Positions 2,221-59,626 of a DNA stretch of 64,000 bases are shown here, piece after piece. The notes under the pieces were generated by a model, which saw nothing but the letters and a program-made list of their open reading frames with translations, searched no databases and was not told the origin of the DNA. Made by a program: the position numbers and the translations under genes. Origin of the DNA: Ophiura sarsii (taxonomy: Eukaryota > Echinodermata > Ophiuroidea > Amphilepidida > Ophiuridae); assembly GCA_035610835.1 (NCBI GenBank), contig CM069457.1:43999319-44063318 (forward strand). The letters are read 5' to 3'. Each line of letters opens with the position of its first letter. The stretch's first letter is position 1.

Positions 2221-17185
<14,965 letters not shown>

Positions 17186-29723: not shown

Positions 29724-29793
29724 ATGTCACCTACATTGATATACTTCCTTGTATTAGCATTTCTTATGCTAAACTATGCCGTAAATGCATCAG
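29724..29793 (+). CDS. Gene B exon 1: signal peptide
   Basis: ATG at 29724; 70 bp, ending at phase 1 before GTAAGG. It encodes MSPTLIYFLVLAFLMLNYAV then NAS: a hydrophobic core and small residues at the end, a typical secretory signal. An earlier ATG at 29717 is in another frame and gives no signal peptide. Linking this exon to the FN3 exons rests on phase and on the absence of a better start. Confidence 0.68.
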
Positions 29794-32700
29794 GTAAGGG
29801 AGTAAAAGCCACATTTACATTGTACGAAAAATGAAATATGAATGATATAACTCTCTTTATAATACTAAAAGAGTCGGGATTTTTTAAAGATCCAGATTGT
29901 CTAAAATTATTTCAAACTGAAAGCGAATACTAATAATACAAAGACTCGGACAAACTGAAGTAAAGTGAATATTGCTTCAATTAAGCTAAATAGCATAATC
30001 AAATTGTTCGGCTGAGCACAAGGATTCCGAAAACGTATAGTTTGCCCATTTCCAATGTTTGGTTAACGAATTACCAGGTCAAACGTAAAAAAGGTAGTTG
30101 ACCTTTGCATATCGGGTCAAAATTTAAACTTGCTCCGCTTTAAAAAAAAAAATATCTCAAATTGTTCGTCTGATTGCGAGGATTCTAGAAATGATAGTCT
30201 GTACCATCTAGAGTGTCTGTGGTACCTTATAAAGAGGTCAAAAGGTCAGGTTCCATATAGGTCAATACATTGACCTTTTGACCCACATAATATATTCCCA
30301 GTGGTAAAAAAACACAATTTCTGGAATCCTTGTGATCATACAAACAATATGGTAGTAGGGTCTAGAATGGCAATTCCTTGACCATTCTGTGGCTAGTAAG
30401 GTTTGACGATTGATTTGACATCTATGAACCATAAAGAAAAAGATAAGCTTTAATGCCCCTCGCAAAAGTCCCGGGTTTTTTCGCTAGAATGGCCGCCATA
30501 CAGGAGCCATACAGGAGGTCCGAAAATTCAAATGACTTCAATTAAGCTAAGAAGCCTACCAAATTGTTCGCCTGAGCACAAGGATTCCGAAAAGTATAGT
30601 TTGCCCTACTTCCGATGTTTGGGTAACGAGTTATGGGGTCAATTGGGCATATTGCCCCCACCCCCCCCCCCCACCCCCACTTGATGCATATGTGTACATT
30701 TCAGGAAATATTAACACTATTCCTGTGAATAATTGGGCGAAATCTGATCACAATCCGACATTTCGTTTGAAAGATATAGCCAAAAGACTGATTTCAGATG
30801 GTGAATTTAGCATTTCGCTAAGACAATCAAGGAAAAAAAGGTTGGCACACTTTGTCCCAATTAAGGAAAAAAGTGCCCGTCTCCCCCGAGGAAATGTTGA
30901 TCCAAACCGCATGTCATCAGAAGCTTTGGCAGCTCTCTCAACATTGATTGATGGGGAGAAGGACGAGAGGGAGGGGAAGACCTCTGCGTGCTATTAAAGA
31001 GTGCTATGTCCCAAGTCGGTTCTCTATTGTGAGCACAGGGATAGTTGTATTAAATTGTATCAAGTGTGCCAACTATTATTTTCCTTGATTGTAGGAATAC
31101 ACCGGCAAAGGAGTATCGGAAATACTTGGTAAATGGTACCAGCACTTCAGAGGGATACTGCTCTTAGAAATCCCTTACAACATAATTATTCAAAGGACAA
31201 CATTTTTAGTTTCATTTTTGTTCCTCAGTTCCTTTTAGTTGCCCACCCCAACGTTTCAAGACGATGGATATATCAAATGTTAGAATCGTTTTGACGCTCG
31301 TAATCAATATTTCTGTAAAAGTAGCACAACGTTTATTTTTGGGTAGCTTTGATAAACTACTGGGTATATTATCTCAGGATTGACAAAATCAAATAAGATG
31401 AAATGAACGGCATTTAAAAGCAAGGTGTTTCTTCTCTCCGTGTGTATAAAAAATATTACATCAAACTTTAGAACTTCATGGTAAACAAGATGCGCAAACA
31501 TGTGCACCTTTTTTTAGGGACACCCTGCATAGTATATAGCTTAGAGTCATTTATCACAAATTAGTTAGACACTTGACACTTGTAACAAAACAAAACACAC
31601 ATACCAGGGTTGTTGTTGGTAATGTATTGGATAATCTATGGTACTGAGAAGGTATGATGGAGCTTTCAGTAAAAACAGTCAGTTGACCAATCATCACACT
31701 TTAACATCACCCTTTAACGTTCATGAAAATCGTTATGTTAATAATAAACTCGTGATAACGCCTCACAGCTCCGAATTACAGGTTTCATGAGCCAATACAT
31801 AAGTCATGGGGTAAGTTAGTGACATTTTAAATCACATTGTGTGTTCCTATTTACACATTTGACTTATAATTGCAGGGTCAAAACATTTAGTTAAAGGCTA
31901 AGGGTCATCACATATTCAATATTTATTGAACAAAACGATTTCGATCGTTGTCTTATTATTGAATTATGAAAATGGCGGTGTTTTCGGCACTTGGTTGTGT
32001 GTATTATTTTAGGATTAGTTATGACTCATTTTATGTCACTATTGTTTCCATACATATGCTACACATTCATCCAATAAATGAAGCAACAATTGATTATTTT
32101 CAAATGATCATTATGATACATTAATGTTGTGTTGTTTCAATACACAGCGCAATGTGCACCTTCCAATCTGATAACCACTCCAGTTTTATCAACACAACTG
32201 ACTATTTTATGGAGGTGTTATGACCGAGATGCTGATGATGAGGTAAAGGTGGGTTATCGACTAGCCCACCTAGGACATTGTGATACAGGGCTTGGTAGAG
32301 GTGTGGATCCACCATTTAACTATCAGTTTACAGAGTGGGGTACTTGGAATCGTCAAGATGACGGTGATCCAGACACTCTTGATACTTATCAACACTCTGC
32401 CACATTGACTGACCTGTTTCCATACTCCTCATATCGCGTGTATGTGCGAGTCAGACAATCAAATGGTGCAGGTGGTTATAACTATGCAAACTCTAAGTTG
32501 ATATATCAGGATACAAATAAAGCAGGTGAGCCAGTGATTATGCAAATTCCTGTCTATTTTAATTTACATAATGTTATGTGCGTTTGGAATCAATAACGGC
32601 AACTATTTTATGGATGGTAATGATTCAGACAGACAGCTGCAACCGGATAAGAAATAATAAAGAAATAAGGTCGTGTATTACAATACTAGTGTGTATAGGT

Positions 32701-35700
32701 TACGTAGCACAAAAAGGCCCTGACCAGGCGCTTTGATGTTGGCTAATCCAAAATTAATACTCGATACGAAAAATCTGAGATATACATTTCATGAGCACAT
32801 TTCTTCTCCGTAGATGGATACCTCATTCATAAAAATCGAGTGGACATTATTGACGTTATGATTGTTTAATTGACCACCACTATCATAACAATTTTTGAAC
32901 TAAAGGTGGGTTTCAATGCGATATCCTTGCTTTAGTGTATGATTACGCATTGAAAATGTATGTGCCGACTCCCTGTCGATGCCTGTTTAATTCCCATTCA
33001 TCCCCATACCTGACTGGGTGAGATAACACACAGTGGACAATGCATCTATGATGCAAATCAATGATATCCCATAGAAACCCAATTCTAGTGCAACTTTGTT
33101 GTCGTTACTTATGGTTATCGGAAACTTATGCAGAACGTATTAAGAACACGTTGAGTACGTCGAGAAATTGTGAACATGCTTAATAATTTTTTGCGGGCTC
33201 GACGTGTTCCAAAATTTTACAGCGTATCACAGCGAGCTCTTTAACGTAAACGACGTATCGCCAACTTACCCCTAACTTATATCAGCGTACACCAACGTAC
33301 CCAACGTATTTTCCGATATTTCGCTTACGTTGGCATTATACGTTTAAGCGATACGCCATGGTGTAACAGTTAAAACATGTCAATTAATTGACCAACGTTA
33401 AATAATATCAATTATTTGGTCGGTTTCTCTATCTCCACACAGCACCAGGAACATTGGGTTCTGAGAATATAGCGTATACACCATTTGCAAACCAACTGTA
33501 TTTTAATTGGACAATACCTTGTGGCAGCAGGAATGGTTGGATAACTGATTATCAGTATATCCTGAGAGATGTTAACAACAATGTAATCACGGGACCTACT
33601 ACAATACAAAACCCCTATCGTTATATTACTAGTCTCAGCTGTGACACTACCTACAGGTTCTATGTTGCTGGGATCAATAGTGAAGGAACAGGACCATACA
33701 GTGAATACAAGACAGCAACAACTTCATGCTGTACCACCAGAGGTAATTTATTTAATCACATTTATTTTTGGTTTTGAGATAAGACGAAATTAGCAAGCAC
33801 CCCATTGGTATCATGAATACATAGTCCTAAAACAGGTAAAGTATATGCTTATATATTTCAAATTATATACCGCATACATAATCAAGCTATGCCTTCAATT
33901 TCAATATGACGTCATGAAAAACAAATTTGCCCGGGCATAGTCTTTTTTGATGACGTCACACACCATGGTTCACGTTTTCACGAACACCCTGTATATATTT
34001 ACGCCGTGCTTGACAGCTGGCCTTTGACTTTTCGCATTTATTCGTCTGCTGCGTAAAGTTTTGTTTAAACATTTTACATGATCAGTTTCGTGTTGTTGTA
34101 CCGTTTTAAGAAATGGCTAAAAAGCAAATAGCTCTGGTTGCGCTTGTTGACGAACAAGGCATCAAAGATATCATAGATTCAGCTAGCCTCAATGCAAAGT
34201 GTCCAGTGAAATACGCTGTTAGAATTGCTATCCCTCTATCACTAGCAGTTTAGCGGTAAGAATATACAGTGACAAACCTTCCGAATTCGGAAATCGATAT
34301 TTTTGTCCGATTCTACTTTGTCCTTAGGCAACAGAACAATGAAGGTGTGGTCTCGTGTACCTTCATTTCATGAAACTCTGGTTGGCCTAAGGTGAATAAG
34401 TATATAGGAAATGTTCTTTTATAACCAATCAAATGACAACAATCTATATACTAGTATTTGGTATATAAATCAAATATCGACTGCTTTCATTCGGGTCACG
34501 GTTCAAGTTATAGGACCGCAGTGATCTCGAAACTATACTATGCCCCTCTGCTAACGCCTCGGGCATAGTCTGGTTTTCGAGATCACCTTGGGCCTATAAT
34601 TTGAACCATGCCCCTCATTGTAGTCAATATTTGTATACTATAGCACCGATGCAAAAATATTAAATTTTAAAAGAATATCTTCTCTTTAAATTGAGATATT
34701 ACATGATTGACTAATAATTTTAGATCTACGTGTCCAAAAAAAACCTTAGTACAGTTTTCATTTAAGCAACAACAAAAATGTTTTTTTGTATAAGCATGAC
34801 TTGTTGTGATTAGCTGAAATTATATAAACTAGTTGTGTGTAAATGTAATCTTAAAACAAATCCCAAGATATGAGATGTTCATGTATGAAAATGTGGATAA
34901 GATATAAAATGATTTGAACAAATAGGGTCTAAAAAAAAACACTTTTCTTCTTTTGTGTACTGGTTGTCCCTAAAGAAATGGTGCACGTGTTTAACCAACT
35001 CGTTGACCATGAAATTCTACGATTTGGTGAACGATGTTAATACATACGAAAAGACTAAACACCTGGCTTTCAGATGCCGTTTATTTATGATTTGGTCATG
35101 TCAATCGTGATATATACCTAGATTATCAAAGCTACCCAAATTTGACGTTGTGCCACTTTTACAGAAATAATGATTTTAAGCGTCAACACGATACTAACAT
35201 TGGTCTATCAATGGACATCAATCCGTCTTGAAACAATTTTTTTTTATAAATAAAAGGACTGAAGAACAAATATGAATCAATTAACTAAAATATATATGAC
35301 AATGCCCCCCCCCTCCCCCCCCCCCCCCCCCCCCACCCACCGGGATTGATGTCCATGAACATTGAAGGTTTCGTCTCTGTTGATTAAATATGTAATCACA
35401 ACATTAATATTCAGACACATATGAGATAATATTCTGGCATAGGCTAGTTAAAACGGTTTAATGATCTGAAAAGTTATTGCCAGATAAAACTCTATAATAA
35501 TAGTGCACGTTTTTTTTCTTCAAAATAATATTCTTAACCGATATCATATCCAAACAACAGAAGAATCAAAGATTCCCAAAGTTTAAAATTGCAAATTAAT
35601 TGGCTGCTGAATGTTCTTGTTGCAAAAAGTCCTTACTTGCACATGCATTGAGTTGTTGATCTTCTGTTTGAACACAAACCATGTCTTTTGTAATGTCTTA

Positions 35701-38700
35701 TGTCATCAAAGCTTTATGGACCTCTCCCTTCAACATGTCCTCCTCACGTGCATTGCACTTATCCGCTCGTGTTCTCATTGCCTGGACAGCGTTCATTGGA
35801 TCTCTGCTCCGTCTCAGTGCTCTGACTTCATACATGATTCTCCTTTCAAGTTCTTTGCTGGCGGTGTAAGGTACACTTTACTCTTAATGTAACCCCACAA
35901 GTAAAAGTCCAAAGGTGTCCAGTCCGGTGAACGCGCTGGCCACTCTCTATTGTGACCAATGCCACGAAACAGTGTTTGGAGACGATCGTGAACTATCCGA
36001 GACTGATGACACGGTGCACCATCCTGAAACCACCAAACTCTAGTGATAGATCCATTGTTATTCTGCTGATAGCGGACATTTAGTAGAGTCATTAATCTTG
36101 GATTCCGTAACCAATTTCTTGATACCTTAGTTTCTTAGTGAATTTGTCAACTAGAACCATTTTAAAAGAAAATGAGCTCCCATGCACCTCTCAAAATAAA
36201 AGTGACGGGAACGTTCTTTTATAGCGCAAATTCCAAAATGGCCGCCATACAGGTGCCCACAAATTAAAATGGTGTTAATTAAGCTAAAAAGCACACCAAA
36301 TTGCTCGGCTGAGCACAATGATTCCGAAAAAGTATAGTTTGCTCTACTTCCGATGTTTGGTTAACGAATTATCGGGTAAAACGTAAAAAAGGTCATTGAC
36401 CTTTGCATATCGGGTCAAAATTTAAACTTGCTCCGATTTTGAATGATCACAAGGATTCCAGAAATAGGGGTTTTTTACCACCGGGAATATTTTGTGTAGG
36501 TCAAAAGGTCTACTGACCTATATAGAATCTGACCTTTTGACCCCTTTATAAGGTACAACAGACACTCTAGGTGGTAAAACATCGGAAGTAGGGCAAAATA
36601 TGCTTTTTCGAAATCCTTGTGCTAAGCCTAACAATTTGGTATACTTTTTAGCTTAATTAAAGCTATTTGAATTTTCGGGCCCCTGTATGGCGGCCATTTT
36701 GGAATTTGCGCTATATAAGAACGTTTCCGTCACTTTTGAGTGGTGCATTGGAGCTCATTTTCTTTTAAAATGGTTCTAGTTGACAAATTTACTAAGAAAC
36801 TAAGGTATCAAGAAATTGGTCACGGAATCCAAGATAATGACTCTACTAATTGGCCAAAAGCTGAGGAACAATGAGGTTATAGATCATATCTAGATACCTC
36901 TGGCCATTCATTTTCTCGCGAATGATGATAGGACTAATGATAGACCCATTTTCCATGAGTCCTATCCAGACTACTAGCTTCTCTCTTCTGAAAGAGCGGT
37001 CATACACAAAGCCCTGTGGCGGGTTACCTCTGGGGGCATATGATCTCACATTCTGAGTTTGGACTCTGGCATCCAACGGGAATACTGCTTCGTCACCAAC
37101 AAGGACATCAGATATAAATCTGGGTTGAGCATTGAATGCGCCTCGGTAAATCGGCAGGGAGCAGAGCGTGTCTTTCTTCCATCGTATATGGATGCCATAC
37201 TAGACCCAACCTCATTTCTACGAGCAGATATTGTTGGATCCTCTGAAGTGCACGCCGCACGTCATCAATGTGTTGCTGTGTCCTGCCACTTCTTAGTCTT
37301 CCAGAGTGTTCTTTATTCATATTGGTGCTTGTACCATTTACCAAGTATTTCCGATACTCCTTTGCAGGTGTGTTCCTAGATGGCACGCGAGTGTTTGGGA
37401 AATGAATGGCAAACCCTCTGAGGACTTCAGCTGGGCTTCTTGTTTCATGATATTTTAATACCATGAACACCCTCTCGTCTAATGTAAATTGAGGCCACAC
37501 CCCCGCCATATGGACGTCTGTCTTGTTTTAAAAATGTAGGCCTAATGCACATGTTGTGAAAACTCTTCATTCAAAAGGACTGGTTCGATTCATGTAACAA
37601 ACATCTTTACATTCAGTTCTGCTTGGCGACACAGACACTCATTTTATTGAAGGGTTCAACAAAAGAAAGTATACCACTTTTTTATGTCATTTTGAGTAAC
37701 ATTGCGTAACACTGGTGAAGGGCAATCTTACAAGTGGAAGTCTTAACTAGGAGTACACCTTTAAACCTGTAAAGTGGCACAACATCGATTTGGGTAGCTT
37801 TAGTTAATTGGCCATATCTCACGATCAACAAGACCAAATTAGGAATAATTTAGATACCTTTTTCGAACCATTGTGTTTGAGCTCCGTAGCTTTCGAGGTC
37901 ATCACGACCCCTTCATTCAGCGTAGTGTTTACTTCCCTCCGTTTGTCACATGACCACCTTTTGGGACCAAATTATATTAAATAAACGGTATCTGAAAGAC
38001 ATGTGTTTGGTCTTTTCATATATTAACATCGTACACTAAATCTTAGAATTTCATGGTCAACATGTTGGTTAAACACGTGCACCCTTTTTTAGAGACACCC
38101 GGTATATATGAGAGATGTGTTTGGAATGTATTTTTACATGTATTTTCAGCACCTGATAGGGTCACCAATCTCCAACAGGGTAGAATAACAGCGACATCCA
38201 TTCAAGTGATTTGGATGGAACCCACGTTTAAAGGATGTCCTATCATTGACAGTTATGAGGTGACAGGCACAGGTGTAAGTCGTTTGAGTGGATGTCCTAC
38301 TCTGTTTAGCCACACTTTTTCACGACAAACATCTACATCATTGTCATATACAAGAACACCAGCCAGACCATACTTTACATACACAATAAGTGTTAACTCA
38401 GTGGGTGGACCCGTACTACCAATTATGGTGTCCACTGAGCAATCAGGTGAGCCGAATTGTGTTTAGAGATTATCTCGTTATGCAAACTTACCAAAACATT
38501 TTAATAACTGAGATGGAATTGATTTGAGTGTGACACGGGAATAATCTTCGCGTGAAACATGAAAATACTCCATTTAACATTATCATTAATTATTTATATC
38601 ATTTAACATTCTGCATAAATGAGTATGAATACTATATATAAACTATTCTTAAACAGCTAAGAAAGTTTAAGCAATCTCATTGGTTCTCAGAGAAATCGGC

Positions 38701-44700: not shown

Positions 44701-47700
44701 TACTGACAGCCCCCCTGGCCAATCATCCAATGCACGTCTCATTATAGACTCTGCATAAAGGTTGAAGAGTGCTGGTGAAAGCATGCACCCTTGACGTACT
44801 CCCTGACCTAGAGCAAACCAGTCACTATTTCCTTTCTCAGTGCGAACACAGGCAGCTTGACCATCATACAGATTGCGAATTAGGTGGACGAGGTGGTAAG
44901 GGATTCCCATTTCTTGCAGTGCTGTCCACAATGCCGAATACCTCACACAATCAAAGGCCTTAGCGTAGTCTATGAAGCACATGAAGACCTCCCTCTGGTA
45001 TTCAAAACATGTGTCCATTATGTGACGTACATTGGCTATCTGATCTCTTGTGCCGCGGCCTTTCCGGAAACCGGCTTGCTCAGCAGGAAGTTCACGTTCA
45101 AGATGAGGTCTAAGACGTTCGTTGATGATGTGCAGCAGGATTTTGCTTGCATGTGATATCAGAGCGATGGTACGATGATTTTTACATTCGCTAGCATCCC
45201 CTTTCTTTGGAAGTGTTAGGAAAACTGATCTCTTCCAATCCTCTGGCCATACTCTTGACTTCCACACAGTATTGCACAGCTTTTGCATAATAACTGCTAC
45301 AGAATCATCAGCTTGCTTCAGGAGCTCACTTGGAATATCGTCTAGACCAGGTGCCTTTTGACTTTTAAACTTCATGATGGCTTCCTGGACCTCTGATAGA
45401 AGAATATCAGGCTCATCATCACCTAGTGGAGGCGGGGGAGACTCCTGTGAGCCATTTGTCTCTTCTTGGGACGCATACAGATTTTCACAGTAGCTTTTTC
45501 AACGATCCTTGATTTCTTCACTCTCAGTTAAGACCTTTCCTTGCTCGTCCTTGATGATAGCCAATCTAGTTGTCGTTTTTGAGATGATGTTTTTTATGCA
45601 TCTAAAGAGCTCTCAGCTGTTTTTGTGAAAACTGTGATCCTCAAGTTCTTGGCATTGCTGTTGGATATGCTTATTTTTTCTCTCCTAGAACTCAATTGAA
45701 CCTCACTTGAAAGTCTTCTGTATAGGTTACTGCATTGCAGACCAGCTTCCTTCAATTGGCGTCTTTCATCTGCTAAGTTGATGGTTTCATGTGACAGCCA
45801 TTATGTGGTCTTTCTCTTATGTTTCTTAGGAACATGTTTTTGGTTGCGCTGAGAATAGAGTTTTTGATATCCAGCCAGAGTTCATCAGGAGTTGTTTCCT
45901 CGTCTCTTACCATCAGTTCTTGAAACAGATTTCTGGTCTCCACTCTGTATTTGTCATCAAGATGCTGCAAATCAAATCTGCAGGATTTTGGAGCACCTTT
46001 GGTCATCTTCAACTTGATTCGAAAATCAGCAATCAGAAGTTGATGGCCACTACCTATATCTGCCCCTGGCAGGGTGTTCGCTATCTTGATAGAAGACTTC
46101 CACCTACTGCTAATGAGGATGTAGTCAATCTGGTTTCTTGTGAGGCCGTTTGGAGATATCCAAGTGTACTTCCGTCTCGGGTGTTGTTGGAAAATTGTGT
46201 TTGTAATAGTGAGTCTGTTTGCTACACAGAAATCCACGAGTGTACTACCTCTTTCGTTTCTGCTTCCCAAGCCATGCGGGCCCAAGGCCATGGTTTCGTC
46301 TTCACTTTGGATGCCTTCTCCGACTTTTGCGCTGAAATCACCTGTTATCATGATGATATCTCTCTTCGAAATACCATCAAAGGGTTTCCTGCAGTTGGCT
46401 GTAAAAACATTCCAGATCTTCATCAGAGGCAGCGGAGGTCGGTGCATATACTTGAATGACTGAGAGGTTATTAGGCCGAGCTTGGAATCTGATGGAGATG
46501 ATCCTGTCACTGACTGGGTTGTAGCCCAAGACGAACTTTGATATGATTTTACTGGTGATGAAAGCTACACCTTTGCTCCTTGCATAGATGAGTGTAATAT
46601 TTATTTTCATTTGACGAAAAAAAAGTTGTTTAAATATTAGAATTTAAGCAGTGTAATATTTTTATTTGTGTCCATGATAATGTCAGGGATAGCATTAATT
46701 GGTGAACACTTGTTCTTCTAATCACTTCCCGGATGTTTCACTAGTCCCTCCGATGTATGGCATGCCAAGGGTTTTTCCATTGCATGGAGTACATGGCATT
46801 GATGGTATAAAGCTGATCACTCTCTTTTGGAGGGGGAGGGGGACAAGGATGTTCAGTTTTGTTTCATAGCCGTGGAGATGTTACGGCGTACATGTACACA
46901 CACAGGCAGGTGCAGGAGACCAAATTGGAAACTATATAATTAAATGGACGGAATGCCCAGTGTCCATTGCATCTAGCAACCAACCTCACGTAGTGTAAAA
47001 TGCGGCTCGTCCACAACCAGTGTTGGCAAAACGAGACAAAGGCAATAGGTGTTTTTTTAAATGTCCATATGCAACTAAGTCGTCCTGATGACCCCTTTTC
47101 AAGAATTCGACAATATTATGTATATAGTTATACGCAAGGCTGTTTTTTACAAATAGTTTCTCGCACTCCACTATCCAACCCTTTCCCAAAATGATTGTGT
47201 TGTTTAATAGCTCATTTTGTGTTTAGTATATTTTTTATTTAAATGCATGTATATGCTGAAGGTTTGAATTACATTACCTAGTTGTTCAGATGTCATGTCT
47301 GGGTATTGTTTTCAAGTCTCTCCGGAAGCTTCTGATATTGAGGATAACAACAAGTCTGTCAATGATTGTCATGATTGTGTGAAAATCTGTTGTCAGTTTG
47401 CATTCCATTTGTTTTCCTTTCAGCACCCTACTTCATTTGAATGCCAGTGTGCTTCTGTATTTGCCTTATGCTTCTTTGTGTTTAGGGCAATGTGTTGATT
47501 AATGATATGGGCTTAGTTAAGGTATAGGTATTGTGCAGATATTGTATACTTCTTTTGCTTTTGTCGCTCGGAGTATTTTCACTATTATTTAGTCAAATGT
47601 ATCTGTCTGTTTGTTTTGCAGCACCTGGTATGGTTGCAGACCTAGAAATATTTCGTGGAACCAGAACCTCAATCAGCATTGGATGGAATGCTCCATCCAG

Positions 47701-50700
47701 CTCCTGTGCACCAACCAGTTATGCCATAGAATACAGACTGACTAATCGAGACCAATGTGAACCAATCGTAGATGGACCACGGATGTCAGGTGGTACAGCC
47801 TCTGCAGCTACATTCCCATCAAAAACCATCACTGATCTGCTTCCGTACTCAATGTATGAGGTGTATGTGTATGCTGTTAATAGTTATGGACAAGGACCTG
47901 AAGCATCAGTGACAACAATGACCTTTGCAGATAGTAAGTGTCTGGTCTGTTTATATACCGTTGAGTTGATAATCATAACAAGGCATGCAACGAAGGCCTG
48001 AAGTATCGGAACTTCTCTATCTTATCATCTACTAATGACAGTTTGGCGGATTCAAATGTCATAAACTTAAATGCAATTGTTGGCCAAATATAGGTGATTA
48101 CAATTAGGCCTATTTCTAAACTTTTTTTAGGGTTTGTAGCCTAATACACATAATACAGCGATAAGTATGAGTAGTTAATACTGATGGAAAACTAACTTTA
48201 TGTTGCAATCACAACCCGTGGTCTTCTGAGGACCAAAAATAGGGTGTATCAAAACTCTTTGAGCATGGATTTAATCCTTTTTAAAACTACTGAACCATGA
48301 CCAATTTTATTTCTTTGTAAAGTACAACTATAATTTAAAGTTAAAATCCTGAAAAGATTAGGAAAATCCATCATCGATTTAGGAAAGTGTGGCCAATTAT
48401 GTAAGTCAGCCTATTTTGTTATATGTACAATGGTAATTCATACAGTAAATGTGGTAGTGTAACGCGACAGGGCTAATTTTAATTAGCCTTCAAATTATTT
48501 ACCTTTTACAAAGGGAAATAATTTGTATTCTTATATTGCTAAATTATTAATATTCCTATCATGCTTATGGCAGAAATTAAAGTTGACTTATAAGTCAATG
48601 TCTTTCTCTGTCAATTATTGGATTGTGCTTTCCTATTACAACTTTCCTACATGCTGAGGTTTTTTATGAGAACACTGAGCAACATTGAACATTGCACAGA
48701 CATATCCAAGCATCAAATCTGTGGATTAGGCCTATGTAGCTATTACTGATTTGTGCCTCTGACGTCACTCGTCTAGCTGTACATAAAATCCACAACAGCA
48801 CAATGAAGTCAGCTGTCAACAGGACATTTTACTATTCTGCTCGTGGGCTATGGAATGCCCTGCGCCATCCATTCGTTATGCCAGAACGGTTTCTAGCTTT
48901 AAGAAGGGTCTGAAATCGCACCTCTTCCCCAAGTAGTTCATCGCATGTATCAGTCAGGTCCCTTTGTTATGTTTTCAAGTTCTTTAATATATTTTGTGTA
49001 TATTTTTCATCCATTTTGATATGTTCTGCCATCTTTAGCGCTGTGATATTTATGAAATGGCGCTCTATAAAAAGCCTATTGTATGTATGTATATATGTAG
49101 GCCTATGCCAGAAATAAGAGGAATACCAAACTAATTTTTGCTATTGTTATTGGCAGATGATTTACAATGTTTATGAATGCCAAGTATTGAAATGTAAGCC
49201 ATGTCATTTTCTGGTTTGTATGTGTAAATCCCATTGCACAGACTAGTAAATGACATTGTTTAAGTAAATTATGCTAGCGGTCTTATCTTTCATTGGATTA
49301 ATCACATTGTTTAAGGATTTTGACCTTATTAGTTGTACATTACAATGAAATTTAATTGGTTCATTTGTTGTAATAAGGATTAAATCCAGCCTGAGAGTTC
49401 TAATTGTTTGATACACCCTGTTTTCTTACTTTTCTCGAATTAGTGAATGACATTTTCTTACATTTATCATCATTCTTTCAGTACCCTCTGCAGCTCCTGA
49501 TAATGTTATAGTCACATCTACTAGTCGTAATAGTCTAAGTTTCTCCTGGGATGAGGTTCCATGTGGAAGCAGACACGGTGTCATACATAACTACCAGTAC
49601 CAGCTTCAGTATAATGATGGTAGTGGAACTACAGGAACTACAGCACTGGGCGACACATCAGACAGAATGGTAACCATCATGGATGGTCTGTCAGCTTGTA
49701 CAACCTATAGATTTCAAGTCAGAGCTCGTAACTCCCAGGGTGTCACCTCTAATTCATGGAGTGATTACATTGAAGCTGTAACAGCAGGTGCAGGTGGGTG
49801 TTGTATTATCACCATTGGTTTAAAAATAAATCAATAAAGGAAGACGTCTAGTTTCCAAAACGTCCTAGTTAGTACTCATTATAGACTAAGACATGATTTA
49901 ATCGTTATCATATACTGTGTGCTTTAACATGTTCAATGCAATCTTTTCCATTGTGCTTTCGTATCAAGTGTCATTTGGGATTATAACAATTCATTATTCC
50001 TCTAGGATGGGTTGTTGAAACTTGTGTATGATTTTTTTTAAATACATTTTGACAGTTGACGCTTTGACCGTAGCACCCCAATCTGCTACTGAGTTGGCTG
50101 TATCCTGGACAGTCCCATCACAGTCATGTACTACCAATACAGAGTATACTGTTGAATATCGTCTTAAAAATAAAGACCAATGCATGGAGTTGGGGAATGG
50201 TCAGACACAATATAGAACTGTTTCAGGAACAAGTTCTGCACTAACAGGTCTGTTGCCATTTTCGACATATGAAGTTTCAGTGAGAGTTGGAATGAGTGTT
50301 GCAACAGAATTGGCTGATACGCATGGCTCTAGTAAGTATTATTCATGCACTTTTGAAATCAAGTTGCAAACTAGTCGCAGAGTGGGAAGCTAAAATATAA
50401 GGAATTGATTGAAAATTGGTAAAATTGGTGTTCTGCTTTTTGCCAATGATGGCTTTTGAGGAGAAAAAATAGTGCCATGATAAGTTCCTTTTCCATTTCC
50501 CAAATCAAGAAAGGGATGGCAAAATTGTATTCTAAATAAACATGTCATTATTCAGTTTCCAATTATATTTCCCGAAACAAATGAATGAAAAGACAATGCT
50601 CAACATATACAACTTTACTATGGATGATGTCACAGCAGTCATCTGGAAAGAATTTGTTAGCTTTAGGCAAACGTCGACAAAGCAGCTTGTCACACTCGTT

Positions 50701-53700
50701 CGGATCATGCTTCAGTCATTAATTTCCTATCTCATTTATTTTGCAGGACCCACTGGTTTTCCTCGAAACATTCGTGCAATGAGTACCACTAATAGCAGTA
50801 TCACATATTCCTGGACCGAACCTATGTGTGGCGAAAGGAATGGTATCATAGATAAATATACCTACACATTCTTAAAGACTGGAAGCTCTTCTGATCTGCA
50901 ACATAACAACGTGTTCACATCAGATACAACGGTAGAATTCAGTGATCTTGAGCCATACACGGAGTACTCTTTTATTATCTCAGCTAACACAGATGATGGT
51001 GTTGGACCCCAGGCTTCGTTCAAACATCGTACGCTTGACGGAGGTATGACTTAGTATGACTGAATCATAAAAGAAGAAACCTGTTTTGTAATAATAATGA
51101 CTATCCTTCACATAGATATTTATGTTAACTCTTTAAAGCTTAAAGCTTAAATCTTTGGTGCGCTAAGGGGTCATTCAAGAAGGCGTCCAACATGGCTGCC
51201 AAAATTGCGTTCATCAACCAAAATGTATGGTGAAAGTATATAGTTTTTATAGTGGGATGTATGTATTAGTTCATATCCAGAATAGTGACAACAGTTTATC
51301 GTGTCGCATCTTCCAAATCGCTTTGATCTCGATCCTTTTATATAAGATGCATTTTAACTCTAAGATGTGATGATGATCAATGTGTGTCACTTGTTAGGGG
51401 TGGCACATTTAAATAGGATAGTTCAAATTCATGCATGTTGGCGTAATGCTACTGGATGAGTTTTTACAAAGCTTTGAAGTCCATATTATGTGTTCTTAAC
51501 GCACGAAAACCAATAGATATAAACGATGCCAATGTCGTCATCATGTTTGGTTTATTCTGGTTCCGATGTTAAATGGAGGAACGATCAGCCTGTTTCTTTT
51601 TCGATACTTTATTTAAACTCTAAGCAGAAATGATGATTGTGTCACTTGTTATCATTGGATGAGTTGCTTAAAAACTTTGAAATCCATTATATCGTAGCAA
51701 ACCAATAGCATCTAAACGATGCCGATATCGTCGTGATTGGACCATTGCGGGGCATCTGATGTTAACACTTTCCACGCGGCTATTAGTAATGCATTTCTTA
51801 TGGTGATTCCAATTTTTTTAATGAAATCCAATAAGTATGACATTTTTGAAGCATTTTGTGAAATTTTGGAATGTCGTTTGCAGATGCCTGCCGCATGGAA
51901 AGTGTTAAAGGGAATAGATCCAAATCAGGAACCGATCCACCAATTATTTATGAATTGACTATAATTCCATAATTTCACATTCCACACATTCTATAAGTGA
52001 ACAATTATTAACTTTTCATTTTGCAATTATGTGGGTACATCGATATGAGTAAACTATAATAATATGGATTAATTTCCCGGAAACCTCTTTATTCCAATGA
52101 TTCTTGAGTTCGAAGATATTAGAGGAGGGGACTAAACTTAAGGCTTACTAGATAATGAATCCTAGTTCTTCTGATTTATCATAATTAGCTAAATTGGTTT
52201 AGCCCCCGGGCCGTTCCAGAAGTCTCGGGTTGATCCTGGATGCTAAGTTAGGTGTTTGTACTGACTATATTATAATTAATGATGTTTGAAGTTTAAATTT
52301 CCATTGCATTTACTTTTAAACCTATTGAAATCGTTATTGATATCATTTTCTTCTATCACACAGTTCCATTTGCTCCAACTAGTGTAACTTTAGAGACAGG
52401 CACAAAAGAAGGATCGATTGACATAGAGTGGGAAATACCAGATGTAACCAATGGCGTTATTACACACTACCGTATTCGTTACTGGAAATCGGGCGAAAAC
52501 GCTGTGGAAATAATTCTGGCTGCTGACGCCATGGAAATAGGAATGTTTACATTACCTGGACTTCAAGTGAATTCCACTTATAACATTCAAGTAAGTGTAC
52601 TTACAGTTTCTGCAAATATATTTTACGAGACTGGCGAGACCTACACCACCCCATCCCAGCTTATCCCTTTATCCTGAACATTTGCCAATATAATTGCCCA
52701 ACTTTTGAGTAACTAGAATTGTTCAACTGTTGGTGAAAATATATTATCCAACGGTACTGTTGGGCAAATTTTACTCAACAGTTGAGCGGTTGCATACTTG
52801 AACAACGTTGTGTAAAATGTTGAGTAAATATGTAAGCAACCTTTTTGCAGTGTATGAATGCCGTTAACCGTCTAAGTTTGCTATGTGCTACCCACTGACC
52901 AATCAAGTGATTGCTGAGGGCCAATGACGCGCGCGTAGTGTACAGATGTAGGCATTCACACACCCATTTTCATTCCATCTGAAGTGCCAACGTCAACTCA
53001 GAGCTCATGAGCGCAGCTTATACATGTTATACCGGCCTTATTTTTGTGGGGCTTTCGTAAGTCTCGTTATAACAGGTGTATGATCTTCAATATTGACCTT
53101 GTCTATGTTTACCAATATTTCTTTACCTAAGGTTCAAGCCCAGACAAGTGCCGGTAAGGGGCCATGGGGAGATGTGGAAACTCTGTTTGTCCCACCAGGT
53201 ATGGTTACAATGTAGGCATAAACACCGATACAAGTCATAATACTGATCATTACAGAGACGGCGGGGTAGAGACTATAAATGAATATATTATGATAATACA
53301 ATTGACATACCCCTGACGCATTTGACCAGCTGTATTTTGCCCTATCAATATGTTAACTATTGTATTGACAAATCATGAAGTCCTATAAATGTCACAAAAT
53401 GACAAGGCTGCACCAGCTCTCATTCGAATTGAATATTCCGCCGAAACAGCTCGTGCATTTAATTCAGCTCCGATACTGTTGCAGTGTGCATAATCATAAC
53501 AAGTATGACAGTTTGAACTGCCTAATCTGTCATATAGGCCTATAGGCCTATTTATCAAACTTAATACATTACAATCTTTTATAACAAATATCCTCAAAGG
53601 GCTATCAATCATGTTCCTCTCGAATGAGTCTGGAATATGTTGTTTGCGGTATTTATATACACATTTTGTTATGTTATACCTGTTTAACAGTGTGAACCAA

Positions 53701-56182: not shown

Positions 56183-56274
<92 letters not shown>

Positions 56275-56304
56275 AAACAAAAACAAAAACAAAAACAAAA
56301 ACAA

Positions 56305-56344
<40 letters not shown>

Positions 56345-57068
56345 AACGAAAACAACAGCAGCGGCAACAACAACGACGGCAACAAGACATAATCTAATAA
56401 ATTCTTGAGACGTCATAATTCACAGTATTACAATAGTATAGTGGTAGCCTCCAAATAATGAAAGCATCTATTAGTTCTATCAAAGTTCGGATCATCCCTT
56501 TTGATTGACAATTCAGAAGATAAACTACTGAGACTCGTCATAATTAGGCGATTGCGTTTAATTTTATTTTTGAAAAAAAAATAGGCTTTCTTTTTTAATT
56601 AAACAAGTTGATGTACTTCTATTGCTGTCGCAACATTATAAAAGTATTACATCTTTAAAAAAATAACGTTTATCACGATTTGAATTTAAACACTGTGTTA
56701 CCTACCACGATCTTATTGCACACAGACGGAGAAAAGCCTCAATGAAGGAAACGCCGAATGATACACCAAAAGACGAGAACGAAATCTACGATGAAATTGA
56801 TGCCAAGAAGGAGATGATGGCAAAACAACAGCAACAACCACAACGCTTACAAACTGCGGATACAGGATATGAAGTCAACATAGCTATGGAGGCTAAGATG
56901 TCACCTCGAGCTCAAAGTGATGGATCAGCTTATGAAGATGTCAATATCAAAGAGGAAGCCGAGTATCAAGGTCTTGATTTAGACACGGTGAATGAAGAGC
57001 AGACCTACCAGGACTTGAAAGGGAATACAGCTACTGACACAAGCGCCCCTCAGTACGCGAATGTTTAA
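29724..57068 (+). CDS. Gene B: FN3-repeat single-pass receptor with multi-tyrosine tail (complete)
   Basis: Join of 29724-29793, 32148-32525, 33443-33742, 38150-38446, 42181-42474, 43209-43496, 47622-47933, 49482-49793, 50056-50331, 50747-51043, 52364-52590, 53132-53198, 54370-54466 and 56726-57068: 3558 bases, 1185 residues plus stop. Signal peptide 1-23; ten FN3 domains at about 24-149, 150-249, 250-348, 349-446, 447-542, 543-646, 647-750, 751-842, 843-941 and 942-1039; transmembrane about 1047-1069; tail to 1185. One-exon FN3 domains are all phase 1-1, the arrangement that lets modules be shuffled. Two cysteine-bearing subtypes alternate loosely (YRL-x-DQC and CGSRNG), and the last domain is canonical. 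No Ig, EGF, kinase or phosphatase domain was seen. By family logic this is a cell-surface receptor with extracellular FN3 rods signalling through phosphotyrosine; ligand and family are unknown. Confidence 0.87.
29975..30650. mobile_element. Foldback element, degenerate copy in gene B intron 1
   Basis: The sequence shares many blocks with the foldback element at 36081-36848: the run around TTGTTCGGCTGAGCACAAGG, TTTGCATATCGGGTCAAAA, and GGCCGCCATACAGG. The end is repeated in inverse relation. Exact ends are unclear. Confidence 0.65.
30705..30997 (+). CDS. Unassigned open exon, possible secreted peptide precursor
   Basis: A C-rich pyrimidine tract and TTTCAG precede 30705. The frame is open from there to TAA at 30995-30997, 96 residues, and enters at phase 1, the phase left by the signal-peptide exon. 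Joined, they would give a ~120-residue secreted basic protein containing an SRKKR dibasic site. Composition is not low complexity. I do not recognise the protein. It could instead be a fragment of a mobile element, since transposon debris lies on both sides. Confidence 0.3.
31086..31529 (+). mobile_element. Fragment of the same Tc1/mariner family as 34960-38102
   Basis: 31090-31140 matches, in opposite orientation, the N-terminal part of the transposase near 37340-37380 (TPAKEYRKYLVNGTS). 31240-31529 matches the terminal inverted repeat and ends AGGGACACCCTGCA followed by TA. It is an internally deleted relic in gene B intron 1. Confidence 0.7.
32148..32525 (+). CDS. Gene B exon 2: FN3 domain 1
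   Basis: Acceptor AATACACAG and donor GTGAGC; phase 1-1, 378 bp, the longest FN3 exon here. It reads QCAPSNLITTPVLSTQLTIL, then WRCYDRDADDEVKVGYRLAHLGHCD. The GYRL-x4-HC pattern relates it to the YRL-DQC subtype. An acidic, glycine-rich insertion (TEWGTWNRQDDGDPDT) lies between strands C and E. YRVYVRVRQSNGAGG ends the domain. It has no A counterpart in the window. Confidence 0.85.
33443..33742 (+). CDS. Gene B exon 3: FN3 domain 2
   Basis: Acceptor TCCACACAG and donor GTAATT; phase 1-1, 300 bp. It has LYFNWTIPCGSRNGWITDYQY, a second cysteine in LSCDTTYRFYVAGINSEGTGPYS, and ends TTSCCTTR with a vicinal cysteine pair not seen in the other domains. Confidence 0.87.
34499..34609. repeat. Hairpin repeat in gene B intron
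   Basis: Nested inverted pairs: GGTTCAAGTTATAGG with CCTATAATTTGAACC, and GTGATCTCGAAA with TTTCGAGATCAC, plus GCATAGT words inside. It looks like a small foldback MITE. Confidence 0.7.
35304..35336. repeat. Poly-C tract
   Basis: A C run with rare T and A interruptions inside the mariner-type element. Length is probably unstable and poorly assembled. Confidence 0.85.
35698..37509 (-). pseudogene. IS630/Tc1/mariner transposase, broken
   Basis: Starts at the ATG complementary to 37507-37509. The N-terminal part (MAGVWPQFTLDERVFMVLKY, FPNTRVPSRNTP) resembles the DUF4817-type DNA-binding region seen before DDE transposases. The core gives VWIGLMENGSIISPI and the DDE pieces WWFQDGAPCH and SPDWTPLDFYLWGY, with 37 residues between the aspartates of FQDG and PLD. 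Frame shifts occur near 37090 and near 35840, and the foldback element interrupts after LLAN. Without the insertion the coding length is about 350 residues, normal for the group. The frame ends at the stop complementary to 35698-35700. Confidence 0.85.
36081..36848. mobile_element. Foldback element nested in the transposase
   Basis: 768 bp with ~290-bp terminal inverted repeats starting TAGTAGAGTC. A 3-bp target duplication ATT lies at 36078-36080 and 36849-36851. Removing the element with one ATT leaves the transposase frame continuous across the site, which confirms the ends. Three-base duplications are usual for PIF/Harbinger-like elements, but no protein is present to classify it. Confidence 0.88.
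38150..38446 (+). CDS. Gene B exon 4: FN3 domain 3
   Basis: Acceptor TATTTTCAG and donor GTGAGC; phase 1-1, 297 bp. It begins PDRVTNLQQGRITATSIQVIW and has FKGCPIIDSYEVTG and a second cysteine in SGCPTLFSHTF. It diverges from both main subtypes, with a PYFTYTISVNSVGGP end. Confidence 0.86.
38645..38998 (+). repeat. Dispersed MITE-like repeat, copy 2
   Basis: 354 bp, the inverse-orientation copy of 379-725, with the same short inverted ends (ATTCTTAAAC and GTTTAAGAAT). It holds a CTCATTGGTTCTC (inverted CCAAT) word and a GATTGGATGG word. Confidence 0.75.
39000..42180 (+). other. Gene B intron 4, right part: no gene seen
   Basis: AT-rich intron. It contains AAGATGGC/GCCATCTTGG words near 40378-40405, a perfect X-box palindrome at 41285-41298 and a fragment of the 28808-29552 MITE near 41745-41800. 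No FN3-like or other coding stretch was found. Confidence 0.6.
41285..41298. promoter_or_regulatory. Perfect X-box (RFX-type) palindrome
   Basis: GTTGCCATGGCAAC matches the RFX consensus of two half-sites with a 2-bp spacer on both strands. RFX sites control ciliary genes in animals. Here it is intronic, so function is unproven and chance or repeat origin is possible. Confidence 0.35.
42181..42474 (+). CDS. Gene B exon 5: FN3 domain 4
   Basis: Acceptor ATCATTCCAG and donor GTACGT; phase 1-1, 294 bp, open throughout. It reads PDTAPANIQLTSSSSSLTVS, WDEIPCGSRNGIITGYPYQIL, then YVFKVAAQTIGGVGPMS. It is the CGSRNG subtype, closest in style to exons 3 and 8. Confidence 0.87.
43209..43496 (+). CDS. 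Gene B exon 6: FN3 domain 5
   Basis: Acceptor GGTTTTGCAG and donor GTATAT; phase 1-1, 288 bp. PTSISSDTILSTSINFSW, CSDPCPGGITSYSWRLLQ and YEFSVAGVSADGIGSYS. It is the direct partner of gene A 2221-2508. The flanking intron is also similar from about 43118, which marks the left edge of visible A/B homology. Confidence 0.9.
44209..45500 (-). pseudogene. LINE reverse transcriptase, largely intact
   Basis: The frame is open from about 45500 (YCENLYASQEETNG) through KFKSQKAPGLDDIPSE, MCFIDYAKAFDCVRY (motif A), GQGVRQGCMLSPALFN (motif B), the catalytic LRYADDTTLFA (motif C, YADD) and FNFLGSLITKEGG, ending near MWCWRRMLRIV. A stop replaces an expected W codon just upstream (about 45500). A frameshift near 44207 separates the last ~90 residues (43921-44205). 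Confidence 0.9.
45773..46610 (-). pseudogene. LINE endonuclease region, frameshifted
   Basis: Two overlapping minus-strand frames: 46610-46377 (IISKFVLGYNPVSDRIISIRF, SVIQVYAPTSAASD) and 46510-45773 (MITGDFSAKVGE, TWISPNGLTRNQIDYILIS, GSGHQLLIADFR). The GDFSAKVG, NQIDYIL and GSGHQLL blocks are the conserved metal and catalytic regions of APE-type endonucleases, with S and Q in place of the usual N and D/H residues. The frame shift near 46400 inactivates it. Confidence 0.82.
47622..47933 (+). CDS. Gene B exon 7: FN3 domain 6
   Basis: Acceptor TTTTGCAG and donor GTAAGT; phase 1-1, 312 bp. ISIGWNAPSSSCAPTSYAIE, YRLTNRDQCEPIVDGPRMSG and YEVYVYAVNSYGQGPEAS. Partner of gene A 4103-4417. Confidence 0.9.
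48760..49100 (+). mobile_element. LINE 3' end (L2/CR1-like C-terminus and tail)
   Basis: The sense strand reads SAVNRTFYYSARGLWNALRH, then after a frame shift SFKKGLKSHLFPK and a stop, the usual C-terminal signature of L2/CR1/Jockey-type reverse transcriptases. A short 3' UTR ends GGCGCTCTATAAAAAGCCTA and then a GTAT repeat. Confidence 0.72.
49482..49793 (+). CDS. Gene B exon 8: FN3 domain 7
   Basis: Acceptor CTTTCAG and donor GTGGGT; phase 1-1, 312 bp. PSAAPDNVIVTSTSRNSLSF, WDEVPCGSRHGVIHNYQYQL, a glycine/threonine-rich loop and LSACTTYRFQVRARNSQGV. Partner of gene A 6208-6507, with four extra codons in the loop. Confidence 0.88.
50056..50331 (+). CDS. Gene B exon 9: FN3 domain 8
   Basis: Acceptor TTTTGACAG and donor GTAAGT; phase 1-1, 276 bp. 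LAVSWTVPSQSCTTNTEYTV, YRLKNKDQCMELGNG and YEVSVRVGMSVATE. Partner of gene A 6923-7198. Confidence 0.9.
50747..51043 (+). CDS. Gene B exon 10: FN3 domain 9
   Basis: Acceptor TATTTTGCAG and donor GTATGA; phase 1-1, 297 bp. ITYSWTEPMCGERNGIIDKY and YSFIISANTDDGVGPQA. Near-identical to gene A 7904-8200, the best conserved extracellular exon of the pair. Confidence 0.9.
52364..52590 (+). CDS. Gene B exon 11: FN3 domain 10, first part
   Basis: Acceptor ATCACACAG and donor GTAAGT; phase 1 in, phase 0 out, 227 bp. VPFAPTSVTLETGTKEGSID, WEIPDVTNGVITHYRIRYWK and NSTYNIQ at the split. Three codons present in A (T-E-S region) are missing. Confidence 0.88.
52690..52855. mobile_element. End fragment of the 13519-14869 transposon family
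   Basis: Matches 14695-14869, including repeated TTGAGTAA words and the terminal AAGCAACCTTTTTGCAGTG. The other end is not nearby. It is in a different intron from the A copy, so it is an independent insertion. Confidence 0.75.
53132..53198 (+). CDS. Gene B exon 12: FN3 domain 10, last strand
   Basis: Acceptor TTACCTAAG and donor GTATGG; phase 0 in, phase 1 out, 67 bp. It encodes VQAQTSAGKGPWGDVETLFV and PP. Partner of gene A 11726-11807, which extends five codons further. Confidence 0.87.
54370..54466 (+). CDS. Gene B exon 13: transmembrane segment
   Basis: Acceptor CATGCAG and donor GTAGGT; phase 1 in, phase 2 out, 97 bp. VSPRSSTGLIAG then an isoleucine/valine-rich helix (IIIAVILVIIIVIAIIVVY). 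Only one copy is present here, unlike gene A. Confidence 0.92.
55640..55722 (+). repeat. Degenerate tRNA-like sequence
   Basis: It shows AGCTCAGTGGTACAGC (box A-like) and GGTTCAATCCC (box B-like), but the arms do not pair cleanly and the spacing is long. Probably a decayed tRNA-derived repeat, not a tRNA gene. Confidence 0.35.
56130..56395. repeat. (CAA)n microsatellite with CAAAAA block
   Basis: CAA triplets with a (CAAAAA)n insert near 56272-56310. It is the positional equivalent of the gene A tract at 16199-16513, so a CAA tract was in this last intron before the duplication. Confidence 0.94.
56726..57068 (+). CDS. Gene B exon 14: cytoplasmic tail and stop
   Basis: Acceptor TGCACACAG; phase 2 in; TAA at 57066-57068. 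It begins RRKASMKE. The same six tyrosine motifs as gene A occur: IYDEI, GYEVN, AYEDV, EYQGL, TYQDL and the terminal QYANV. AYEDV and EYQGL are seven residues apart. Differences from A cluster in the glutamine-rich linker and after GYEVN, so the tyrosine motifs appear constrained. Confidence 0.92.
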
Positions 57069-57196: not shown

Positions 57197-57877
57197 CACT
57201 CGTCAATAGAAGTTCCTTGCCACTTAAATTAAATTAATATTTAATAGAATATATATAATTATATATAAAAATTCAGAGGTATAGACCTTCCGGAATATTA
57301 TCGCTATATCCAATATCCAATCTTTCGCCTGATGATTGGACAAAATGACCGTATGGGATTGTCCATGAAACTCAGAGTAGCGATAATATTTCGGAAGGTC
57401 TATACCTCTGAATTTGTATAAGCTCTACCGTTAACGGTATTGAGCACTTTGTTCAATGGCTAGTCTAACCAGAAACGGTTGTCAATACATATAATTATAT
57501 ATATATATATATATATAATTGTATATCATAATAAGCAGAAAGTAATCCTCTAACAGCTTAACATGGAATTTAGACATAATAACTCATGCATGGCAGATCC
57601 CATTCACTTGACAATGGCAAGAAGATTGCACGAAATTGGATAATCCCTCCATTCAAATGACTGTAAATGCTAATTTCTTGCAATTTCCTTTTACGCACCT
57701 TACCATTGCTTAATGAATGTGCTCAGCCATGCATGAATGCGTACATCTTAATGTCATACAGACATGATAGAGAATTATTGTCTGCTTATTTTGACATGCA
57801 ATTGTTTAATTTATATTAAATATTTATGTGAAATATTTGAACTTCAATGAGTGGCAAGGAACTTCTTTTGACGAGTG
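57197..57877. mobile_element. TA-flanked MITE with ~28-bp terminal inverted repeats
   Basis: 681 bp. CACTCGTCAATAGAAGTTCC at the left matches the complement of the right end for about 28 bp with one difference. TA flanks both ends (57195-57196 and 57878-57879). The gene A sequence near 17305-17315 keeps an empty TA site. The size and TA target fit a Tc1/mariner-derived MITE. It carries an inner hairpin (57268-57415). Confidence 0.88.
57268..57415. repeat. Hairpin inside the MITE
   Basis: Arms of about 37 bp (57268-57304 and 57378-57414) around AGGTATAGACCTTCCGGAAT and its complement, with one or two mismatches. It may be a second element nested in the first. Confidence 0.8.
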
Positions 57878-59074: not shown

Positions 59075-59626
59075 AAAATAATTTCCTCGGCCGAACGACT
59101 TTAATGGTATGCACATTTTTTGTATCGTCATTAAAAATAAAAGAGTATATGAATTTTGTTGCACGTTTGTCAAATGATTTACATTAGTGTAGAGTATAAT
59201 AAGTGTTATAAATGTAAATGACAAAACATCATTGTTTTGTATATATGATATGTATTATCTTAATCTATGACGATACTAGATTCTATGTTGTATATTGAAC
59301 TAAGACCTTTAAAACTTTAACGCCTATGGCATGTAATATACTGAACCAAAAAAATAATTTCCTCGGCCGAACGACTTTAATGGTATGCACATTTTTTGTA
59401 TCGTCATTAAAAATAAAAGAGTATATGAATTTTGTTGCACGTTTGTCAAATGATTTACATTAGTGTAGAGTATAATAAGTGTTATAAATGTAAATGACAA
59501 AACATCATTGTTTTGTATATATGATATGTATTATCTTAATCTATGACGATACTAGATTCTATGTTGTATATTGAACTAAGACCTTTAAAACTTTAACGCC
59601 TATGGCATGTAATATACTGAACCAAA
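59075..59626 (+). repeat. Apparently identical 276-bp tandem duplication
   Basis: Units 59075-59350 and 59351-59626 look identical by eye. The A side has one copy (about 18520-18790). It is either very recent or an assembly artefact. Confidence 0.92.

Follow-up and report, generated by a model that had tools for sequence, protein, structure and literature searches.

To our knowledge, clusters of receptors with diversifying outer domains and a constant tyrosine-docking tail are known mainly from immunoglobulin (Ig) and lectin folds, and the self/non-self recognition receptors of echinoderms are largely unidentified. In vertebrates, ITAM/ITIM receptors such as KIR and LILR form clusters with fast-evolving ectodomains, gene conversion and conserved tyrosine tails. 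The tails of Alr receptors also carry tyrosine motifs. In Hydractinia, the allorecognition complex contains 41 Alr genes, as stated in the passages of PMC11999971 that deal with it. The ITAM consensus YxxL/I-x6-8-YxxL/I was used as defined in the corresponding passage of PMC12058738. For brittle stars, turnover among immune-related families is described in the genome paper of Amphiura filiformis, the main text of which does not contain the term 'fibronectin' (PMC11310086). Among the matches listed in open-access full texts, a receptor family combining FN3 units with a tyrosine tail was undescribed.

Here, a family of this layout was analyzed in the brittle star Ophiura sarsii. It shares with KIR and LILR the clustering, the fast change of the ectodomain, probable gene conversion and the conserved tyrosine tails, but KIR and LILR are built on Ig domains and classical ITIM/ITAM motifs. 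Like Hydractinia Alr, it would represent a clustered multigene set of recognition receptors. Alr, however, is cnidarian, with an Ig-superfamily ectodomain and an established self/non-self role (PMC11999971), whereas the role of the present family is proposed from sequence data. Among invertebrates, the oyster receptor CgIgIT2 likewise spans the membrane once and signals through a tyrosine motif, but carries five Ig domains and a classic ITAM (PMC11999971).

The window, a stretch of 64,000 nucleotides (C17:43999319-44063318) of a genome that was searched as a whole (1.57 Gb, 748 contigs), contains gene B at 29724-57068 on the plus strand. Its 14 exons were joined from reading frames and splice sites (Table 1). 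The exon borders have AG acceptors and GT donors with matching phases, exon 1 opens with ATG, and a single frame of 1185 residues runs to a TAA stop at 57066-57068. The predicted protein begins with a signal peptide, which is followed by ten FN3 units, a single transmembrane helix and a tail of 114 residues. Nine FN3 units are phase-1 single-exon units and one is split across two exons. On the full protein, Pfam fn3 matched nine separate stretches (327.5 bits). When the frames of nine FN3 exons were scanned singly (exon 9 lay outside this set), eight exceeded the 25-bit cut-off and exon 4 remained below it with 21.9 bits. The ten FN3 domains counted in the first-pass annotation are therefore nine clear units and a weak one. 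Splice model and Pfam scan agree with the remainder of that outline, namely an enzyme-free protein of 1185 residues with one transmembrane helix and a tail of ~114 residues bearing six tyrosine motifs.

Other families that passed their own cut-offs are FN3-like or Ig-like beta-sandwich folds (Pur_ac_phosph_N, DSCAM FN3, Interfer-bind and similar). Interfer-bind reached 35.1 bits against a cut-off of 21 bits, yet no single stretch passed alone, and fn3 leads. Type I cytokine receptors have a cytokine-receptor homology module with WSXWS. No catalytic domain was detected by the Pfam scan in the full 1185 residues, and comparison of the phosphatase domains of two receptor phosphatases with the window gave nothing significant (best E 0.39). 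The transmembrane helix contains no charged residues, which suggests that the tail probably signals by itself rather than via an adaptor.

Table 1. Positions of gene B and gene A exons and of a shared tract in the window.
Feature	Position	Strand	Basis or remark
Gene B exon 1: signal peptide	29724..29793	+	ATG frame, GT donor
Gene B exon 2: FN3 #1, carries an insert and evolves fast	32148..32525	+	fn3 29.8 bits; M2a vs M1a LRT 113.7
Gene B exon 3: FN3 #2	33443..33742	+	fn3
Gene B exon 4: FN3 #3, weak	38150..38446	+	21.9 bits
Gene B exon 5: FN3 #4	42181..42474	+	fn3
Gene B exon 6: FN3 #5	43209..43496	+	fn3; site test in 6 copies without positive selection
Gene B exon 7: FN3 #6, fast-evolving, recently exchanged	47622..47933	+	fn3, site tests, tract sharing
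Gene B exon 8: FN3 #7, positive selection possible	49482..49793	+	site test
Gene B exon 9: FN3 #8	50056..50331	+	splice model; aligned to exon 7 at 33% identity
Gene B exon 10: FN3 #9, conserved, control unit	50747..51043	+	fn3, comparisons
Gene B exon 11: FN3 #10, first part	52364..52590	+	fn3, splice model
Gene B exon 12: FN3 #10, second part	53132..53198	+	splice model
Gene B exon 13: juxtamembrane and transmembrane helix	54370..54466	+	splice model
Gene B exon 14: six-tyrosine tail and stop	56726..57068	+	splice model, genome matches
Shared tract around exon 7 (97% identity to two paralogues)	46581..49428	+	locus comparison
Gene A exon 6	2221..2508	+	85% identity to gene B
Gene A exon 7 (FN3 #6)	4103..4417	+	60% identity to gene B
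Gene A exon 8	6208..6507	+	71-74% to gene B
Gene A exon 9	6923..7198	+	88% to gene B
Gene A exon 10	7904..8200	+	93% to gene B
Gene A exon 11	10207..10442	+	79-83% to gene B
Gene A exon 12	11726..11807	+	gene B donor position lost; next in-phase GT taken by eye
Gene A exon 13 (transmembrane)	15134..15230	+	comparison with gene B
Gene A exon 14 (tail), six tyrosines all present	16855..17185	+	84-87% identity to gene B

The gene B intron that follows exon 3 contains transposase-like fragments, mariner-like by eye, which are spread over several frames at 35814-37527 (minus strand); one of them carries a DUF4817 helix-turn-helix. The intron preceding exon 7 holds a retrotransposon fragment at 44212-46564 (minus strand), non-LTR-like by eye, with an RVT_1 reverse transcriptase match of 136.7 bits at 44212-45498.

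Relatives of the protein were sought in a whole-protein database search in which the best 7985 candidates by shared words were scored. Among the matches listed, the nearest proteins came from the brittle star A. filiformis (P0004, P0005 and P0007; 34-44% identical), and P0005 combines FN3 with HYR and EGF. P0004, an 'uncharacterized protein' of 980 aa, resembles gene B in its FN3 region (44% over 493 residues) and has a homologous tail (39% over 98 residues) with the motifs YDEID, GYEVN, YEDV and YQGL; it differs by a HYR match and by four YQGL repeats in the tail. Among the database proteins found, this was the nearest one with a homologous tail. P0004 itself was not found in the O. sarsii genome, where the best match to its tail was about 50%. 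BSL78_01432 of the sea cucumber Apostichopus japonicus (P0001) likewise has, judged by its sequence, an FN3 ectodomain, an apparent transmembrane helix and a multi-tyrosine tail, but the tail has no significant similarity to that of gene B and FN3 identity is only 23-30%. A protein search with the tail alone returned nothing at E<=10 among 253 candidates; since it also missed P0004, other species may well have such tails despite this blank result. The gene B family is probably ophiuroid-specific.

The ectodomain, which the first-pass annotation had set apart from those of Ig- or lectin-based ITAM/ITIM receptors, does have a known counterpart: it is 34% identical over 441 residues of FN3 to P0007, an A. 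filiformis receptor tyrosine phosphatase named mu-like. P0007 contains two phosphatase stretches; in the gene B family these are absent, and a docking tail is found in their place. PDB sequence matches of the ectodomain were led by PTPRF and PTPRD, and the FN3 units match LAR-type phosphatases, contactins and DSCAM in sequence. Elsewhere on C17, for example at ~6.5-7.3, 12.7-12.8 and 32.6 Mb, phosphatase exons lie near FN3 exons that are ~31-44% identical to exon 7. This proximity and the FN3 likeness to P0007 suggest that the gene B family and receptor phosphatases are of common descent.

When the genome was searched with the tail exon, 72 matches at 56 distinct loci were obtained, 51 of these loci on C17 and the others on C9 (two), C6, C14 and C16 (one each). 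Thirty loci are each covered by one unbroken match of 97 residues or more. The larger groups on C17 are located at 26.0-27.8 (14 loci), 31.5-32.2 (12), 33.9-34.9 (6) and 44.0-44.8 Mb (13). With exon 2, which encodes the N-terminal FN3 unit, 68 rows were obtained, of which 61 were free of stops, a few being partial. At C17:44.0-44.9 Mb, the anchor exons 2, 7, 10 and 14 are arranged alike and on the same strand in seven genes, next to which incomplete sets were also seen. Gene B is hence an intact member of a large, clustered family of single-pass receptors with some 60 related loci, and the many FN3-plus-tail copies without a phosphatase domain that had been anticipated do exist. Other dense, high-scoring arrays of FN3 exons were seen at G000:C19:10.12-10.25 Mb, C5:20.0 and 47.05 Mb, and C6:31.8 Mb.

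A tandem paralogue, gene A, lies within the window at 2221-17185 and comprises exons 6-14. No further exons of this gene were found in the 10 kb upstream of the window. An assembly gap (a run of 100 N at 1008-1107) is situated upstream of its exon 6, where the 5' half is missing. In both genes an (AAC)n array occupies the same site, ~340 bases before the tail exon (16200-16512 and 56131-56385).

The six tyrosines of the gene B tail are located at positions 1093 (YDEI), 1120 (YEVN), 1141 (YEDV), 1152 (YQGL), 1166 (YQDL) and 1182 (YANV). Five of them have L, I or V at +3 (binomial 7e-5; 4/100,000 shuffled tails). Thirty tail loci were fetched from the 56; 25 were open over at least 100 codons and ran to their own stop, and the five that were interrupted earlier by stops were omitted from the tail set. 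All six tyrosines were kept in 25/25 intact tails, with nearly fixed neighbouring residues. Mean dS was 0.287 and mean dN 0.088 in 299 pairs of these copies (mean dN/mean dS 0.31), and a one-ratio codon model gave an omega of 0.35, with all six tyrosines in the conserved class. The tail tyrosine motifs are under purifying selection.

An ITIM is described by the pattern [SIVL]xYxx[ILV], and such a site, SAYEDV, occurs in all 25 intact tails. The tail had been called ITAM-like in the first-pass annotation, but an ITAM in the strict sense was not confirmed: the consensus is absent from every one of the 25, although 24 comply when V is permitted. Gene B misses it since the first half is YEDV and the following pair is spaced by 10 residues. 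YxN was present in 20/25. In the absence of a strict ITAM and with one ITIM-type site, an inhibitory or dual-sign output of the tail appears no less likely than pure activation.

Divergence differs markedly between the FN3 units. In 36 pairs from nine genes, FN3 #6 had a dS of 0.271 and a dN of 0.230, and FN3 #9 a dS of 0.250 and a dN of 0.079; the tails of six of these genes (15 pairs) gave 0.226 and 0.082, respectively. Pairs with dN>dS made up 209/820 for FN3 #1 and 34/190 for FN3 #6, and none of 231 for FN3 #9 and of 300 for the tail, the pairs not being mutually independent. Within the same genes, amino-acid replacements thus accumulate faster in particular FN3 units than in others. Between genes A and B only, omega was 0.61 in exon 7 and 0.25-0.50 in the other exons. 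For FN3 #6, all 30 fetched loci provided 302 pairs at dS 0.05-1, with a ratio of 0.68.

Codon site models (M1a vs M2a) were fitted with purpose-written code on a fixed FastTree topology and not with PAML. FN3 #1 (41 copies, the window copy and the 40 top-ranked of 67 other rows) gave an LRT of 113.7, with omega 2.8 at 13% of sites. FN3 #6 gave 30.6, with omega 2.5 at 15% of sites, in 20 of the 30 fetched loci (the ten lowest-ranked were omitted; the best 150 of 462 candidates had been scored). The LRT was 23.9 for FN3 #7 (12 copies), and 0.0 each for FN3 #5 (6 copies) and FN3 #9 (22 copies of at least 72% identity; best 150 of 708 candidates scored). The copies of exons 8 and 6 were those found inside other loci, with partial or very divergent ones omitted. 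In the tail (25 copies) the nominal LRT of 7.9 (p 0.019) concerned one linker site and lay within the range of single-tree simulations.

The site tests were calibrated by null data sets simulated without positive selection on the FN3 #6 tree, 24 on a single tree and 24 in which the copies had their second halves reshuffled so as to imitate gross recombination. The maximum LRT was 8.95 in the single-tree sets, with 2/24 above 5.99, and 28.2 in the recombined sets, with 9/24 above this nominal threshold. Recombination therefore inflates the tests. The LRT of FN3 #1 is far outside the simulated nulls. That of FN3 #6 was reached by 0/48 sets and clears the worst case by a narrow margin, whereas that of FN3 #7 was matched by 1/24 recombined sets and is not safe; FN3 #7 is perhaps a third positively selected unit. 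The M0 mean omega of FN3 #1 and #6 was 0.67-0.69. Each unit is therefore under constraint or neutral over most of its length, and part of the replacement excess in the variable exons may reflect relaxed constraint. In a predicted model of FN3 #6 (mean pLDDT 73.7), strands A and B contain 5/7 sites with a posterior >0.8 (p 4e-4). Two positions, 18 and 20, are in alternation with Trp 21, which is conserved, and therefore probably face outward.

Comparison of gene B with single paralogues gave different distances for different parts. With the genes at 44.58 and 44.72 Mb, dS was 0.01 in exon 2, 0.61-0.64 in exon 7 and 0.23-0.24 in the tail. With the genes at 44.19 and 44.55 Mb, gene B shares the 97% identical tract around exon 7 (2.7-2.9 kb, a lower bound as the identity runs to the ends of the fetched loci), while dS was 0.19-0.23 in exon 10 and 0.33-0.36 in the tail. 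Gene B is a mosaic of parts common to different paralogues, and the tracts in common contain variable FN3 units. Gene conversion or unequal exchange would be the simplest cause.

A second tail type was found at C17:14.28 and 14.46 Mb, 3' of FN3 #9-like exons, where a similar transmembrane exon (E 0.17-0.21), preceded in one of the two cases by exons 11 and 12, leads on to an open frame of another kind. This frame consists of two or three tandem cassettes with VYENP, VYEDL and EYQGL. From their order we infer that the transmembrane and cassette exons are spliced together. The second tail had 26 matches in the genome, mostly on C17 and also on C1, C9 and C18. At C1:83.80, C9:61.41 and C17:31.40, 31.83 and 53.59 Mb it follows, on the same strand and ~6-13 kb downstream, FN3 #9 exons that are 80-86% identical to that of gene B. 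Closely similar membrane-proximal units thus occur with either tail, an arrangement that may correspond, by analogy, to that of paired receptors.

The features by which a diversifying immune-type family was to be recognized were all found: paralogues in clusters, an excess of dN over dS in units of the ectodomain, and conservation of the tail. Constant tails with fast-changing, swapped outer parts are the pattern expected of receptors for changing targets, such as microbes or non-self cells. As to an immune or an adhesion role, the pattern of selection and exchange favours the recognition of a changing target. We consider it likely, with a probability of roughly 0.65, that the gene B family comprises lineage-specific, FN3-based recognition receptors of immune type, with an ectodomain related to receptor phosphatases and with docking tails. 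Of the signalling adhesion or immune receptor family named in the first-pass annotation, the enzyme-free character and the many members are supported, whereas a strict ITAM and an ectodomain without known counterpart are not. In the proposed mechanism, the variable FN3 units (#1, #6 and perhaps #7) would bind a changing ligand on microbial, allogeneic or rival-cell surfaces, and binding would cluster the receptors. Src-family kinases could then phosphorylate the tail tyrosines, with SHP-type phosphatases or Syk-type kinases docking through SH2 domains on paired YxxPhi sites and Grb2-type adaptors on YxN sites.

Other roles can be weighed against the same data. A family of receptors on the surface of eggs or sperm, shaped by sexual conflict and signalling at fertilisation through the tyrosine tails, would fit the fast replacement change, the clustering and the tract sharing between copies, since reproductive proteins typically show fast replacement change and tract sharing. 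Some 60 loci with strictly conserved docking tails of two types would be unusual for gamete or species recognition, which we regard as unlikely. To a similar degree we doubt a function in cell adhesion or neural identity, in which clustered members would confer differing adhesive identities and dock SH2 adaptors on their tails. Clustered, diverse adhesion families exist, and the resemblance of the FN3 units to LAR-type phosphatases, contactins and DSCAM speaks for this function; such families are usually under purifying selection, whereas the variable units of the gene B family include many pairs with dN above dS, and some of the copies are interrupted.

Five of the six tail motifs also fit YxxPhi and could serve as AP-2 sorting signals of endocytic or scavenger receptors instead of SH2 sites. 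One YxxPhi is enough for AP-2, and the retention of six tyrosines with nearly fixed neighbours in 25/25 tails makes this reading quite improbable. Splicing of the same genes to phosphatase exons, by which gene B would be a truncated receptor tyrosine phosphatase, draws on the ectodomain likeness to P0007 and on the phosphatase exons near related FN3 exons elsewhere on C17. It is very improbable, as the window is free of phosphatase exons, none was present at C17:44.0-44.8 Mb among the matches listed (best 150 of 362 candidates scored), and 25 of the 30 tail exons end in their own stop.

A more far-reaching version of the immune-type recognition reading can be put forward tentatively, at somewhat below even odds. 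The family would then constitute a non-self recognition complex of brittle stars built on FN3 in place of Ig or lectin folds, with ~60 clustered receptors, ligand-facing FN3 cassettes diversified and swapped by gene conversion, and closely similar ectodomain units joined to two interchangeable tails as paired activating and inhibitory forms, derived from a receptor-phosphatase ectodomain. An FN3-based form of the diversifying receptor-cluster design in an echinoderm would have arisen independently, it would provide candidate loci for echinoderm self/non-self recognition, and receptor-phosphatase ectodomains would have been re-used to feed SH2 signalling. The coordinates of the variable exons, the conserved exons and the two tail types permit direct tests of expression, polymorphism and binding.

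Two repeats were also noticed in the 3' part of the window. Directly 3' of gene B, a near-perfect inverted repeat is visible by eye at 57270-57420. Further downstream, a unit of 276 bases is present in two tandem copies of 100% identity (59075-59626), which are either very recent or an assembly artefact.
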